The notes under the pieces are model-generated. The model did no database searches. It was given only the letters and a program-made list of their open reading frames with translations, and was not told the origin of the DNA. A stretch of DNA of 64,000 bases from Planctopirus ephydatiae (GTDB lineage: Bacteria; Planctomycetota; Planctomycetia; Planctomycetales; Planctomycetaceae): positions 3,497,501 through 3,561,500 of the forward strand of contig NZ_CP036299.1 of assembly GCF_007752345.1 (NCBI RefSeq), read 5' to 3'. Shown here one piece after another: positions 42,005 to 47,871 of the stretch (positions are counted from its first letter, which is position 1; every line of letters starts with the position of its first letter). Position numbers and translations under genes: made by a program.

Positions 42005-43381
42005 TCAACTTTCAGGTGGAATCTGCCGACCTTGAGGGTCCTGATCAGGTCGCATCAGATCGTTCGAAAGTTCATGACGCAGTTCCGAAGAAATGTAATG
42101 TTCCGCTCGGCTGGCATTATCGTGCCATTGCTCAGGGCGTAAACCCAATCGCTGAGCCAGAAATGTCTCCCAGAGTCGATGTGCACGCACAATCTGCCGC
42201 CCTCCCTGACGGCCAATCTCAGTCAGCACATAATGTTGATCTTCGTAGGTCATGGCTCCTCTCCTGATCAATTGCCGACTGGCAGCCCAGATTTTCCAGG
42301 CGGGTTGCCCGGTTGATTCCGCCACTAGAGAAGACAGATCTTTCGTCGAAACCTGTCGACCGGCCTCTTCTAATCGATAGAGGACCGCCAGCAGGTCTTC
42401 TTCTGCAATTCGCATCTGGGTGCGCATCTGCTGACCCAGCCGGCTTAATGCTCCATACTCGGGACTCAACAGGAGTGCCAGCAGCAGGCATCCACTGGCC
42501 ACCAGCACCATCATGCCACTCGTACTGACAGCTTCAATCCCGCCCACACCAATCGAAGCCAACAGTGGGCCAACGAGACTGATCGCCAGGATGTGCCCCA
42601 TCACAGCCGAAAACAATCCAATTCCCATCGACAGCAGTATCATCGTAGGAAAGTGGTGTGTCAGCAGCCTCGCTGTGGCAGGGGGAATCACCAGCATTCC
42701 CAAGACCAGCAGACTTCCCACTGTTTGAAACGCCGCCACAATCGTCACGGCGACCAGTACCGCCAGCAGGAGTTGGACACGGGAAGCGGCGATACCTATC
42801 GACTCAGCGAACACGGTATCAAACGTCGAGATCAGCAGTTCTTTATAAAAGAGCAATAGACACGTCAGATTGAGAACCAACGTCACCAGGGCCACAACAA
42901 CACCAATGGGCAGACTGGTTCCTGCAAAAGTCTCAACGACGGCAACCTCCAGATTGCCAAACACAATACAGGCCGGATCGAGATGAATTCGATCGGCCAG
43001 TGTTCTTAACAGCAGCAGGCCCACAGCAAACAAGGTGGTAAACACAATGCCCAATGCGGTATCTGCGTGGATCGTTCGCAATCTCTGCAACTGCTCAATC
43101 AGGACGGAAGCCAGAATCCCTGAGACTGCTGCTCCAGCCAAAAGAATGACCACACTCCAGCCACTTCCTGCTGGAAATAATCCACTCAAGAGAAAAGCCA
43201 CGACCACACCCGGTAAAGCCGCATGACTCACACCATCGGCCAGTAGAGATTGCCTGCGCAAAACCAGAAACGAGCCGGGAATGGCACAAGCCATGGCCAC
43301 CAGTGCAGCCATCACCACCATCCAGGTATCAATCAGACACCAGGTGGAAAGCGCCTGCAGGATTTGCGTCAGTAACTCCAT
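42005..43381 (-). CDS. Metal ABC permease fused to a DtxR/MntR-like domain (second permease)
   Basis: 458 residues. Residues 1-290 form the ZnuB/MntC/TroC-type permease with eight or nine spans and the LRRQSLLADGVSHAALPGVV loop. Residues 325-445 resemble a DtxR/MntR repressor: a winged helix (VLYRLEEAGRQVSTKDLSSLV, then GAMTYEDQHYVLTEIGRQ) and metal-ligand-type residues His401 (RAHRLWE), Glu427 and His428 (RAEHYIS). The 27-residue His-to-His spacing is close to that of MntR (His77/His103). Last gene of the importer operon. Chlamydial YtgCR has the same fusion and is cleaved to free the repressor. No cleavage site can be predicted here. Confidence 0.88.
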   Translation of the reverse strand: MELLTQILQALSTWCLIDTWMVVMAALVAMACAIPGSFLVLRRQSLLADGVSHAALPGVVVAFLLSGLFPAGSGWSVVILLAGAAVSGILASVLIEQLQRLRTIHADTALGIVFTTLFAVGLLLLRTLADRIHLDPACIVFGNLEVAVVETFAGTSLPIGVVVALVTLVLNLTCLLLFYKELLISTFDTVFAESIGIAASRVQLLLAVLVAVTIVAAFQTVGSLLVLGMLVIPPATARLLTHHFPTMILLSMGIGLFSAVMGHILAISLVGPLLASIGVGGIEAVSTSGMMVLVASGCLLLALLLSPEYGALSRLGQQMRTQMRIAEEDLLAVLYRLEEAGRQVSTKDLSSLVAESTGQPAWKIWAASRQLIRRGAMTYEDQHYVLTEIGRQGGRQIVRAHRLWETFLAQRLGLRPEQWHDNASRAEHYISSELRHELSNDLMRPDQDPQGRQIPPES

Positions 43382-43431
43382 GGATTCAATTCATGTCACT
43401 ATCAAGGTTGGCAATGTCGTCACTGGTACCA

Positions 43432-44925
43432 TTAAGGAGAAACTTCACGAACTGAAGTTGCTTCGAGGGGATGGGGGCTGCGAATGACCCCTTGCCCAAA
43501 GTCAATTCGAAGCAGGATCTTCAGTTCATCGACGGTGTGTGGCCCCAGAGCATGTTCCAGTAAGTCGGCAGTACGATCACCTTGCGCGGGTGGAAATTCA
43601 GCATGCTCAATCAAATACAATTCCAGCAGGCGATGCCGCAAAACGACGGCTTTTGCTTTCTGCCAGCCCAGTTCGGTCATTCGCCATTGACCCGCACTAT
43701 CGATTCTTAAATAGCCTCGATTCACTGCCAGTTGTTTGAGAAACGAAAGATCTTTCGGGGGTATGGATTTCGGAAAGCAAACCGCCTGATGCAACCAGAA
43801 TTCGTCCGGGGCCCCGTTCAATGGATGTACACCACTCAAACGCTTGTCCAACGCCAGTTGAGGCAAGTCTGCGTGACCAGTTTCCGCAGGAGCCATTGTT
43901 GCAGATTGGAGTTTCGCCGTTGTTGCTTCGAACTCTTCGAAGGTACTTCGCAGCAGATCGTCCAGCAGCTGCTCCTGTTTCAGCAATCGACGACTCCACC
44001 ACTGATAGATAACGCCATGTGACCGGCCAAAGCCGACACTGATCGCAAAGAACATCGTGGCACAGAGCACAATCGCTGGCCCTGTCGGAACATACTCCAG
44101 TTGACCACTGATCAGTGTTCCCAGCCCTGCAGACACCATCCCCAGCAGTACAGAAACCGGGATCATCAGTCCCAGTCGATCAGACCAGAACCGTGCCGCT
44201 GCAGCGGGCGTCACCATCAATGCCACAACCAGTAAAAAACCCACCATCGGCAGAGCCAGCACACAAATGGCAGCTGTCATCCCAGTCAGCAGCGTATCCA
44301 GCAAAGCGACGGGCAATCCCTGAGCAATGGCAAATTCCCGATCAAAAGCGATCAGCAGGAATTCTTTTCGTAACAGCAGACAGACAATCACGACGATCCC
44401 CGCCAACCCGCCCAGCAGGAGCACATCGGTACTCGAAAGAGCAGCCGCTCTTCCAAAGAGCAGGCCCTCAAGCCCAGCCGCATTTCCTGAAGGAACCTGC
44501 TGAATGATCGAGAAGAAGACAACTCCCAATGCGAGAAATCCACCCAGTGGAATGCCAAAAGCCGCTTCTCCCCAGAGAGGTTTGACCTGCTGAAGTGCAA
44601 AACAGATCAGGACGGCAACCCCCGAAGCAAACATCGATCCACCGACCAGCCACGGAAGTGTGCCAGCTTTCTCGGGGGCCAGCCATAATCCCAAAAGGAA
44701 CGCCATCGCCACACCGGGTAAAGCGGCATGGCTGATCACATCACTCAGCAGAACCTGACGCCGCAAAGTCAAGAAAACACCCATCAATCCGCACGATGCC
44801 CCTAAGAGCATTGTGCCCGAAAGCACCAGCAGAGCGTTGTAACTCATGGAAAACATGGTCTTGAAAGTCACCGTTCTGGCTGAAGCAAATTCAAAGAACT
44901 GATCGATCAATTGGAATTGATCCAA
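43432..44925 (-). CDS. Metal ABC permease fused to a diverged DtxR/MntR-like domain (first permease)
   Basis: 497 residues. The permease part (1-305) contains LRRQVLLSDVISHAALPGVAMAFLL and about eight spans. After a linker of about 60 residues, residues 380-480 match the second half of DtxR/MntR: MTELGWQKAKAVVLRHRLLELYLI with His431, then ADLLEHALG with Glu457 and His458. The spacing equals that in the neighbouring permease. The leading helix-turn-helix is more degenerate (KDLSFLKQLAVNRGYLRIDSAGQ). It lies between the ATPase and the second permease, with a 50-base gap to the latter. Confidence 0.85.
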   Translation of the reverse strand: MDQFQLIDQFFEFASARTVTFKTMFSMSYNALLVLSGTMLLGASCGLMGVFLTLRRQVLLSDVISHAALPGVAMAFLLGLWLAPEKAGTLPWLVGGSMFASGVAVLICFALQQVKPLWGEAAFGIPLGGFLALGVVFFSIIQQVPSGNAAGLEGLLFGRAAALSSTDVLLLGGLAGIVVIVCLLLRKEFLLIAFDREFAIAQGLPVALLDTLLTGMTAAICVLALPMVGFLLVVALMVTPAAAARFWSDRLGLMIPVSVLLGMVSAGLGTLISGQLEYVPTGPAIVLCATMFFAISVGFGRSHGVIYQWWSRRLLKQEQLLDDLLRSTFEEFEATTAKLQSATMAPAETGHADLPQLALDKRLSGVHPLNGAPDEFWLHQAVCFPKSIPPKDLSFLKQLAVNRGYLRIDSAGQWRMTELGWQKAKAVVLRHRLLELYLIEHAEFPPAQGDRTADLLEHALGPHTVDELKILLRIDFGQGVIRSPHPLEATSVREVSP

Positions 44926-44948: not shown

Positions 44949-45737
44949 CTAACTGGTCACGGATTGTCTCGCTGACATCCGCTGGCCCACGGCATCCAGG
45001 ATGGAAAGCTGACCACCGTATGTCGCCTTCAGATTTTGAGGCGTCAACACCTCGGAAACCGCTCCTGCGGCAATCAGCCGCAAGTTTAACAACAGCACTT
45101 CGTCAAAATATTCCGAGACAGTCTGCAGATCATGATGCACGACAATCGTCGTCTTGCCTCGATCTCTCAATGCCTGCAACATGGCCACAATCGATTGCTC
45201 AGTCGTGGCATCGACGGCAGCAAACGGCTCATCCATCAGATAAAGATCGGCATCCTGAGCCAGTGCTCTGGCAAGAAACACCCGCTGCTGCTGGCCTCCG
45301 GAAAGTTGCCCAATCTGACGTCCGGCCACGTCTCCCAGACCCACCTGTTCGAGAGCTGCCAGAGCCCTATTTTTGGCGTCGCGATTCACAGAGCGAAACC
45401 ACCCTACGCGCCCATAACAACCCATGGCCGCCACTTCGAGGGCACTGATCGGGAAATCCCAGTCAACACTGGATCGCTGCGGAACATAGGCCACTTTTTG
45501 TCGAACCTTCTGATAAGGCTGGCCAAAAAACAGAGCCTCTCCATTCTGCCGGGGGATCAAACCCAAAGCCGCCTTCAATAGGGTACTTTTGCCAGCCCCA
45601 TTGGGGCCAACAATCGCGATCAGTTTTCGACTGGGTGAGACATAGTCAATATTCCAGAGCACAGGCTTTCGGCCGTAAGCCACCGTCATATCATGAATGA
45701 CAAGCGGTGAATCTGATGGAGAATTCTCGGCATTCAT
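44949..45737 (-). CDS. Metal ABC transporter ATP-binding protein
   Basis: 262 residues. Walker [10 protein letters not shown], signature [15 protein letters not shown] and Walker B LYLMDEPF are all intact. Closest to the ZnuC/MntB/TroB group, with [17 protein letters not shown] at the N-terminus. The ATG at 45737 sits 2 bases after the stop codon of the binding-protein gene (TGATCATG), so translation is coupled. It energises the two permeases that follow. Confidence 0.93.
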
Positions 45738-45739
45738 GA

Positions 45740-46792
45740 TCAGTGGTCTACCTCGCACATTTTCACCGCTGGGCTCAGCGATTTGAAAAGATACCGGGAG
45801 CTGCTGTGAGTATTGCCAGATGATTCAGTCCAGCGATCGAGGGGAGCAGTTGATCCTCCCAGGATGGACACGATCTGGCGGGCATTTTCCAGCATCATGC
45901 CGACATAGGTATCTGCCGGGGAACCTGGCTCTCCCAAGGCATCTGTATAGAGCGGCCCAGCGAGAATAAGATCATGCCCTCGGGCCTTTACGCCTTCAAC
46001 GACAGCCCTCAAACCACGATCATTCACGCTGGATTCTGTAAAAATCGCCGGTAGTTTACGGCTGCAAATGATGTCAACGAGACGATCAATATCTGCCACG
46101 CCAGGTTCAGAATCTGTCGTCACTCCCTGAATCGATTCGACAGGGATGTGATAACGCCTGGAAAAATAGGCAAAGGCATCATGAGAGGTGACCAGCAATC
46201 GCTGAGGTTCCGGGATCGAGGCCACCATCTCCTCGACTGTTTTGTCAAGACGGGCCAGCACGTCGGAAAGTTGTGCTTCTCGCCTGGCAATTTCGTCCTG
46301 AGCCTCTGGAAAAACATCTTTTAAGGTTCGAGAAATCAGCCCCAGAGTTGCTCGCCACAGGCTCACATCCATCCACACATGGGGATCTGGACGACCTGAG
46401 TGGTCATCGGGATAAATGATCAGATCTTCGGGAATGTCACTCGTAATGGCAATCGACGGGCGACCCTGTCGATCCGCTCGCTCAAACAGGGCATCCATTC
46501 TCCCTTCAAGATGCAGCCCGGAACTGAAAATCAGCCGTGCATTCAGCACCTTCAGTAGGTCGGCCCGTGTGGGTCGATACAGGTGGGGATCGACGCCGGG
46601 GCGAATCAATGTGGTCACTTCCCCAAGGGAGGGCGGAACCAGTTCGCGAACTAGATCACCCACCATTCCCGTAGAGGCCACAATACTGGCAGGTCGATTT
46701 AATGATGGACTGCTCATCCCTGTCGAACACCCCGACAGCACCGCCAGCCAGGGGAAAAATTCTCGGCGGGAAAGAGTCGAACGGACAGACAT
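45740..46792 (-). CDS. Metal ABC transporter substrate-binding protein (TroA/ZnuA type)
   Basis: 350 residues from ATG 46792; the frame is open to a TTG at 46822 that overlaps the palindrome and is unlikely. The leader ([14 protein letters not shown]) combines a twin-arginine-like RR with a lipobox (LSGC), so it is probably a lipoprotein. Metal-ligand candidates of the TroA family are His in [13 protein letters not shown] and DPHVWMD, Glu in [10 protein letters not shown] and Asp in [11 protein letters not shown]. The loop between the first ligands is short and not His-rich, which argues for Mn or Fe rather than Zn. First gene of the importer operon. Confidence 0.9.
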
Positions 46793-46808: not shown

Positions 46809-46824
46809 TTTTGATTAATCAAAA
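46809..46824. promoter_or_regulatory. Perfect 16-bp palindrome upstream of the metal-importer operon
   Basis: TTTTGATTAATCAAAA is an exact palindrome, 17 bases before the ATG of the binding-protein gene. The size and AT-rich symmetry suit an operator for a dimeric metalloregulator. A DtxR/MntR-like protein is the obvious candidate because both permeases in the operon carry such a domain. This is inference; the site has no close match to the textbook DtxR box. Confidence 0.55.
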
Positions 46825-46962
46825 CATTATTTTTAATATGCTCAGATACGATCAGAACGTCAAGTCACATTCTCTGCATCATTGACGTGCAAGAGCTTTC
46901 TGCCCTTAATCTTTGGGAAATCCAGAAGGGATGATCCCCAGACTCTGAAAGAGCTTGACTTT

Positions 46963-47871
46963 ATGATTCCTTACAACCCGCATCGCTGGACAAGCCATTT
47001 GTTCGATGTTCGCGGCTCAATGGTTCAGGAAATACTCGGGAGGGTGGCTGTTTGCGTGATCTGGTCCACAATGGTCACCATGGCTCACTACCGATTCCCC
47101 GAATGGTTTCGTGGTTTTGAGTTTCCGGCAACAGGGCATACTTTATTAGGTGTCGTTGTCGGTCTGCTGCTTGTCTTCCGCACCAATTCTTCCTACGACC
47201 GTTTCTGGGAAGGACGGAAACTCTGGGGATCGCTGATTAACGAATCCCGAAATCTGGGCAGGCTCAATCAATCATTATTGCAATCGACTCCAGAAATTCA
47301 GCAGCGTTTGAGTTTATGGACATCCGCCTTCTCGTGGGCCACCATGTACCGCCTGAGAAATGAACGCAGCCTGGGCCCAATTGCTCAAGAACTGCCGCCA
47401 GATGATGTTCATTCTGCAATCAGTGCTCTCCACCCCCCGATGTTTGTTGCCAGCCAATTGACGAATCTCGTCAACGAGGCCCACAGAACAGGGCACATTG
47501 ACAGCATTCAACAGGGGTTTTTCGACCATAACATTACGCTGCTGGTGGATTACCTCGGGGGATGTGAGCGAATTCGCAATACCCCTGCGCCTTTTGCGTA
47601 TACCGTTCATTTGAGGCGAGTTCTGATGGTTTATTGCTTTACTTTACCTCTGGCTCTTGTCAATGACTTTGGCTGGCAGACGATTGTGGCGACCCTCATC
47701 ATCGCCTACACCATGTTCGGTATTGAAGAAATCGGGGTTGAGATTGAAGATCCTTTTGGCGTCGATTCCAACGACTTGCCACTCGAAGACTTCTGCCGAA
47801 CAATCCAGTCCAATCTGGCCGAATTAACCAGTGTCCAACGCTCTGCCACTGGGCCGCTCATTCAAAATTGA
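46963..47871 (+). CDS. Bestrophin family (UPF0187) channel protein
   Basis: 302 residues from ATG 46963, with GAAAGAG about 9 bases upstream. The family pattern is clear: HLFDVRGSMVQEILGRVAVCVIW, LLGVVVGLLLVFRTNSSYDRFWEGRKLWG and the late GIEEIGVEIEDPFGVDSNDLPL. Bacterial bestrophins form pentameric ion channels in the cytoplasmic membrane. It diverges from the metal-binding-protein gene across a 170-base promoter region and its 3' end comes just before the nitroreductase gene. Confidence 0.9.
   Translation: MIPYNPHRWTSHLFDVRGSMVQEILGRVAVCVIWSTMVTMAHYRFPEWFRGFEFPATGHTLLGVVVGLLLVFRTNSSYDRFWEGRKLWGSLINESRNLGRLNQSLLQSTPEIQQRLSLWTSAFSWATMYRLRNERSLGPIAQELPPDDVHSAISALHPPMFVASQLTNLVNEAHRTGHIDSIQQGFFDHNITLLVDYLGGCERIRNTPAPFAYTVHLRRVLMVYCFTLPLALVNDFGWQTIVATLIIAYTMFGIEEIGVEIEDPFGVDSNDLPLEDFCRTIQSNLAELTSVQRSATGPLIQN

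Follow-up and report, generated by a model that had tools for sequence, protein, structure and literature searches.

The window considered here is a stretch of 64,000 nucleotides from Planctopirus ephydatiae (contig NZ_CP036299.1, positions 3,497,501 to 3,561,500). It carries, side by side on its minus strand, the genes of a metal-binding protein, an ATP-binding cassette (ABC) ATPase and two permeases, each of which extends into a C-terminal tail related to the metal-dependent repressors DtxR and MntR. Open reading frames (ORFs) and Pfam matches show that the gene set of a Tro/Mnt-type importer is complete, and the four genes are predicted to form an operon. Among solved proteins, the metal-binding protein is nearest to TroA (1toa, E=2.3e-54), then to 3mfq (chain named ZnuA, E=7.8e-38) and to manganese-binding proteins such as PsaA; its top NCBIfam match is AztC (zinc), below the cut-off of that family. 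The top NCBIfam match of the ATPase is the Deinococcus-type MntA, also below the family cut-off. The operon product is likely a Tro/Mnt-type importer for manganese or iron, zinc being also possible.

The original prediction placed a DtxR/MntR-like domain at the C-terminus of both permeases, and this was borne out. The Fe_dep_repr_C family (PF02742) matches residues 387-455 of permease 2 (E=4.3e-21, 75.1 bits) and residues 417-472 of permease 1 (E=1.1e-9, 38.6 bits; permease 1 numbered from its TTG start), each above the curated cut-off of 27. The genome (one contig, 5,214,061 bases) has three PF02742 domains, those of the two tails and that of one stand-alone DtxR, and no other. Against DtxR-family proteins of known structure, the permease 2 tail can be aligned almost end to end (residues 6-133 of 136 with the best, 5zr4, E=7.5e-14), the permease 1 tail only in its second half (residues 75-159 of 184 with the best, ScaR 3hrs, E=4.7e-6). 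At the level of sequence, a DtxR-derived domain on both permeases is thus confirmed. An ABC-3 permease followed by a DtxR-family domain is the architecture of YtgCR-type fusions, which supports the proposed kinship to Chlamydia YtgCR; in the window it is present in both permeases. The features are collected in Table 1.

Table 1. Features of the importer operon and of related loci (positions in the window unless a locus is named).
Feature	Position	Strand	Basis and remarks
Metal-binding protein, ZnuA family	45740..46792	-	PF01297 E=1.8e-64; ATG at 46792, listed TTG ORF from 46822
ABC ATPase, MntA-like	44949..45758	-	ORF, Pfam, NCBIfam
Permease 1 with DtxR-derived tail, 497 aa (if TTG start used)	43432..44925	-	ORF, Pfam
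Permease 1 ABC-3 domain, residues 34-297	44035..44826	-	Pfam
Permease 1 linker and former winged helix, residues 316-416	43678..43980	-	helix 1 with D323, then insertion and region without DtxR helix-turn-helix signature
Permease 1 putative metal-binding/dimerisation domain, residues 417-472	43510..43677	-	PF02742; H431, E435, D450, D454, E457, H458
Permease 2 with DtxR-derived tail, 458 aa	42005..43381	-	ORF, Pfam
Permease 2 ABC-3 domain, residues 21-272	42566..43321	-	Pfam
Permease 2 helix 1 (D329) and former winged helix, residues 318-386	42224..42430	-	solved-protein alignment, family alignment
Permease 2 putative metal-binding/dimerisation domain, residues 387-455	42017..42223	-	PF02742; H401, E405, H420, S424, E427, H428
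Perfect 16-bp palindrome TTTTGATTAATCAAAA, presumed operator of the stand-alone DtxR	46809..46824		TTTTGA-N4-TCAAAA; just upstream of the metal-binding protein gene
ABC ATPase (ABC_tran) ending in DtxR metal domain	L111 4238-5338	-	beside FTR1/FtrD-like iron permease gene and FtsX-like permease
ABC ATPase (ABC_tran) ending in DtxR metal domain	L112 3058-5622	+	beside FTR1/FtrD-like iron permease gene
ABC ATPase (ABC_tran) ending in DtxR metal domain	L117 4442-6310	-	beside FTR1/FtrD-like iron permease gene

Conservation was followed in 64 permease-1 tails and 62 permease-2 tails, window included. Because both sets admitted only tails with the metal domain, the presence of PF02742 in 64/64 and 62/62 is partly a matter of choice. 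The His and Glu-His residues singled out earlier (His401/Glu427-His428 in permease 2, His431/Glu457-His458 in permease 1) are real and near-invariant in relatives, and they stand in register with H79, E105 and H106 of the stand-alone DtxR of the same genome. In permease 2, H401, E405, E427 and H428 are conserved at 100%, H420 at 98% and D329 at 90%. The corresponding values for permease 1 are 95% for H431, 97% for E435, 91% for D450, 83% for D454 (Glu in 14%), 97% for E457 and 94% for H458; position 323 is His in 70%, Asn in 19% and Asp in 6% of the rows. Position 424 of permease 2, which we take to be the place of the Cys ligand of DtxR or the Glu ligand of MntR, is Glu in 58%, His in 13% and Asp in 13%, and it is Ser in the window. 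At the positions that serve as metal ligands in DtxR/MntR, the window reads D-H-E-D-D-E-H in permease 1 (7/7) and D-H-E-H-S-E-H in permease 2 (6/7). All seven positions, helix 1 included, hold D, E, H or C in 48/64 permease-1 tails and 51/62 permease-2 tails; at random other positions of the domain, these residues account for a mean of 15% and 14%, respectively. The tails also share the Trp of an HRLWE motif (62/64 and 61/62), found in 0/16 stand-alone proteins and in 1/32 (3%) of another stand-alone set.

The other half of the DtxR module, which reads DNA, has fared differently. No match to the DtxR helix-turn-helix (HTH; PF01325) was found in either window permease at E≤1. At this threshold, weak matches only were obtained in 2/64 permease-1 tails (best 0.071) and 1/62 permease-2 tails (best 0.027), as compared with 16/16 stand-alone proteins; this last figure is partly by choice, these 16 proteins having been selected by an HTH score over 20. 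A further check consisted of 32 stand-alone proteins recruited by PF02742 alone, in which a PGTVTSMLKTL stretch is conserved at 68-100% per position. In the same region, positions 38-43 have no residue above 27% in 43 permease-2 tails, and the common residues of 44 permease-1 tails differ from the stand-alone ones. A matched-species comparison drew all three proteins from one set of 10 species (45 pairs; L153 dropped as a near copy of L149). HTH identity was 0.387 in stand-alone proteins, 0.210 in permease 1 and 0.166 in permease 2, whereas that of the metal/dimer part was 0.557, 0.503 and 0.437, respectively; the permease cores gave 0.471 and 0.483, for a shuffled expectation of 0.08-0.09. 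Gaps and alignment trouble in the HTH region may explain part of this contrast. As judged from these alignments, both tails are without a conserved DNA-reading helix and keep the metal half. The original prediction that one tail has a poorer DNA-binding part therefore stands as to the poor quality of this part, but not as to its restriction to one tail, since the DtxR HTH signature is missing from both. A new R-x-W pair is conserved in the old helix region of permease 1 (R386 78%, W388 73%; 64 rows), and the winged-helix fold may for this reason persist there with another job. In 240 genomes of another phylum, PF01325 was located in frames of at most 383 aa among the stronger matches, which are those listed.

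The window genome possesses a stand-alone DtxR about 250 kb away (L001 1222-1899, 225 aa), composed of an intact PF01325 HTH, PF02742 and a FeoA domain. Its presumed operator, the palindrome just upstream of the operon, has an exact pattern that occurs at two places in the 5.2 Mb genome. The other copy (G000:C1:2532217-2532232, L204) precedes a DUF1559 pseudopilin-like gene by about 35 bp, and a genome of the same genus (G238) also has a second exact site. With one mismatch allowed, the pattern has 13 strand matches in the genome versus 6 for a reversed control. Six related genomes show at most one exact site beyond that of the operon, and the reversed control is found 0 times in all six; an exact site at the operon was the reason for picking these genomes, so that the informative result is how rare the site is elsewhere. 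No half-sites of the TTAGG..CCTAA type were found upstream in 29 regions. Divergently from the operon lies a bestrophin-family channel gene (46882-47871, plus strand).

In other members of the family (L067, L078-L081, L083, L088, L090, L094, L097), TGTAGC-N4-GCTACA sites, which we take to resemble the E. coli MntR box, are found instead. They accompany short MntR-like repressors in place of the long DtxR; the genome of L080 has both types, and in that of L083 a TGTAGC-type site was found and no repressor. A stand-alone repressor of one of two kinds, a long DtxR that includes a FeoA domain or a short MntR-like protein, is present in most of the genomes. The operator scan covered 39 loci, of which 33 received a call and 6 did not; 29 had a single repressor type. 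With the first labelling, 21/21 long repressors went with TTTTGA and 8/8 short ones with TGTAGC (Fisher p=2.3e-7, kinship ignored). After a check of the labels, the counts were 22/22 and 7/7, again 29/29; G046 is of the long type (diverged protein L218), and G324 has a diverged long-type protein (L261) beside the short one. Two genomes with both repressor types, one for each operator type, and one with a TGTAGC site and no repressor found were set aside from the test. In 20 further stretches, most of them drawn from the remaining PF01325 matches, no second long or short protein turned up in a test genome with an operator call; G291, which received no call, does have a short-type protein. A third stand-alone class, with a DACKIEH motif (L264, L265, L266, L269), occurs in the long-type genomes G058, G117 and G023. 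On the permease tree (32 loci, G046 omitted), operator type switched three times, each switch being forced by well-supported branches. At five loci (L104, L107, L108, L067 and L094), a stand-alone repressor gene diverges from the operon, and the site is situated in the gap between the two or at their starts. Because operator type matches stand-alone repressor type in 29/29 genomes, transcriptional sensing appears to fall to a separate protein, and the evidence for repression by the stand-alone protein is strong, if circumstantial. The proposal that one tail serves as the transcriptional sensor is not supported: neither tail retains the DtxR recognition helix, a separate DtxR with an intact HTH is encoded in the genome, and tails of both permeases are present in both operator groups.

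Both fusions are present in many genomes. A permease-1 match was obtained in 59/61 genomes of the window's family, where any ABC-3 permease may match. Sixty regions were then taken, 40 from the family at the places of these matches and 20, selected for their long frames, from other families within the phylum. With the window included, the 41 family loci comprise 29 with both permeases fused, 1 with permease 1 only, 3 with permease 2 only, 2 with neither and 6 incomplete; the 20 other-family loci comprise 5 with both, 6 with permease 1 only and 9 others. A scan of named genomes gave at least 591 relatives. In 48 of the best 80 loci among them both permeases are fused, in 13 just permease 1, in 7 just permease 2 and in 2 neither, the other 10 being incomplete; these 80 loci come from Planctomycetota, Verrucomicrobiota, Gemmatimonadota, Latescibacterota, Spirochaetes, Bacteroidetes-type and other bins. 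Because the loci were found with a fused query, these shares cannot be read as population frequencies. Of 292 genomes sampled from the phylum, 178 have some PF02742 match, whatever its kind. As far as sequence comparison can tell, the both-permeases-fused form is an old, conserved arrangement. A recent local fusion of a neighbouring repressor is not supported: permease-1 tails, permease-2 tails and stand-alone proteins fall in largely separate tree groups (few columns, rough supports). The exceptions are a permease-2 tail (L170) and an odd stand-alone row (L008_2) placed beside permease 1, and the tails of single-permease loci, which group with permease 2.

Several variants of this arrangement were encountered. 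In L104-L108 and L113, permease 1 has the metal domain and permease 2 ends after a winged-helix-like piece without it (confirmed by Pfam for L107). Besides a fused operon, the genomes G326 and G308 have a second importer operon (L095 and L100, respectively) whose two permeases are both without the metal domain, which is useful as an internal control. Loci with a single permease in the stretch fetched (L115, L116, L118, L119, L123) also have a tail, and such importers presumably form a homodimer. In the single fused permease of L116 (4092-5606, minus strand), the metal domain is followed by a weak match to FeoA (E=0.0014). The three ABC ATPases ending in a DtxR metal domain (Table 1) have a CPHG...CC end, presumably with Cys at the main ligand place, and each is possibly part of a self-sensing iron importer.

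How, then, could such tails act? Because the metal-binding half is kept and the conserved DNA-reading part is lost, the tails are more likely to tune the importer than to switch genes off. It can be proposed that the stand-alone DtxR binds the TTTTGA-N4-TCAAAA operator and represses the importer operon, while both tails, facing the cytosol as DtxR-derived metal-sensing and dimerisation domains, would stay attached to the importer after loss of the helix. When cytosolic manganese or iron rises, the tails would bind metal and repack against each other or against the ATPases, and uptake would stop (transinhibition). Feedback control of transport is in our opinion the best explanation of a metal-sensor domain found on each channel half without a DNA-reading helix; the tails of single-permease loci and the same domain on three ABC ATPases fit it. 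The paired tails may well sense cytosolic manganese or iron and restrain the importer directly, repression being left to the separate DtxR; metal binding, pairing and gating are here proposed from sequence. Gating of the channel and a heterodimer of the two tails, both suggested originally, are possible. Somewhat more tentatively, a repressor could have been turned, in many bacterial phyla, into paired allosteric sensors on both channel subunits of manganese/iron importers, transcription being left to a separate paralogue.

It should, however, be noted that several observations weigh against this feedback model. The helix-1 position holds D, E, H or C in just 7/16 stand-alone proteins, and is thus, taken alone, weak proof of a metal site. 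In the window, permease 1 has L434 where Trp is 97% conserved and permease 2 has S424 at a main ligand position, which may point to drift in this lineage. The net charge of the former HTH averages +3.2 in permease 1 and +2.8 in permease 2, against +0.5 in stand-alone DtxR; this more basic character makes contact of the tails with DNA or lipid possible, and the tails give weak matches to other winged-helix families. The operator test is correlational, and several TTTTGA calls have two mismatches, with chance levels up to 5% (11% for G046). Finally, the tail pair is not always required, because one-tail importers exist (13 + 7 among the best 80 loci).

Other roles can be envisaged for the tails. 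They might simply hold the permease pair together, the metal site stabilising the fold without any sensing. PF02742 is named a dimerisation domain, the domain is conserved about as much as the permease core, and some species lack one of the tails. This purely structural role is nevertheless hard to square with ligand positions, helix 1 included, that are kept while the former winged helix has otherwise not been conserved, and we consider it unlikely. More doubtful still, one or both tails could be metal-dependent repressors, either freed by proteolysis or anchored to the membrane. The permease-DtxR fusion is indeed the YtgCR arrangement, and in Chlamydia YtgR is cut from YtgC and represses (PMC7755916, PMC5599777, PMC6504234); the basic former HTH would also suit such a role. 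However, neither tail shows more than a very weak DtxR HTH signature, if any, and the operator follows the type of the stand-alone repressor, which has an intact HTH. Moreover, internal translation starts that would yield a free tail show no excess (8/107 vs 7.5 expected; 0/97 vs 2.8 expected). It is very improbable that the tails are what is left of an ancestral fusion in decay: the decay of both HTH regions and the window-specific losses S424 and L434 would agree with this, but the metal/dimer part remains 44-50% identical over 10 species, similar to the permease core, and the both-fused form is found in 29/35 complete family loci. Just as improbable is a chaperone-like hand-off, in which the tails would take metal leaving the channel and pass it on, since, although each channel subunit has a candidate metal site on the cytosolic side (predicted topology), we know of no precedent for it and DtxR metal sites are known as sensors, not carriers.

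If the feedback model is true, fast allosteric control of manganese/iron importers would be a frequent feature of Planctomycetota and of some other phyla. Permease-DtxR fusions have so far been read via the Chlamydia model, as a repressor awaiting release; here, sensing would be separable from DNA reading. Whether the DtxR-type domain of YtgC also acts on transport would then become a direct question.

Permease-DtxR fusions as such were already known, and orthologous fusions in 11 bacterial phyla are credited to Thompson et al. (2012) in a review (PMC5599777). The fusion of both permeases, with neither tail retaining the DNA-reading helix, is apparently new, and our confidence in the mechanism is moderate. 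In the open-licence literature, no paper was found that describes double permease fusions, tails of this kind that have lost the HTH, or a transport role for them; Thompson et al. (2012) may mention double fusions. In Chlamydia, the YtgC-YtgR fusion is cleaved during infection and represses its own operon with iron, YtgR being termed the only identified iron-dependent regulator (PMC7755916, PMC5599777, PMC6504234). YtgCR, within YtgABCD, is thus alike in having an ABC-3 permease with a C-terminal DtxR-family domain, in an operon of the order metal-binding protein, ATPase, permease, permease. It is unlike the window importer in that, as described there, YtgC alone is fused and YtgR binds DNA and is cleaved, whereas the window importer has the fusion on both permeases and tails devoid of the HTH signature, and its genome encodes a stand-alone repressor. 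The Treponema TroABCD importer and TroR are alike in that the metal-binding protein of the window is nearest to TroA and in the use of a stand-alone DtxR-family repressor, but that of the window genome lies outside the operon. To our knowledge, TroABCD has no fused tails. Stand-alone DtxR, MntR and ScaR share with the tails the PF02742 family and the metal-site positions; unlike them, the tails have no conserved recognition helix, nor the FeoA domain of the local stand-alone protein. In design, MetNI and ModBC are precedents, in which a pair of C-terminal domains binds substrate and halts transport (PMC10710835). These cytosolic regulatory domains stop uptake at high substrate, a function we infer for the tails of the window importer; the domains of MetNI and ModBC are carried by the ATPases and are not DtxR-derived, whereas those of the window importer are carried by the permeases and derive from DtxR.

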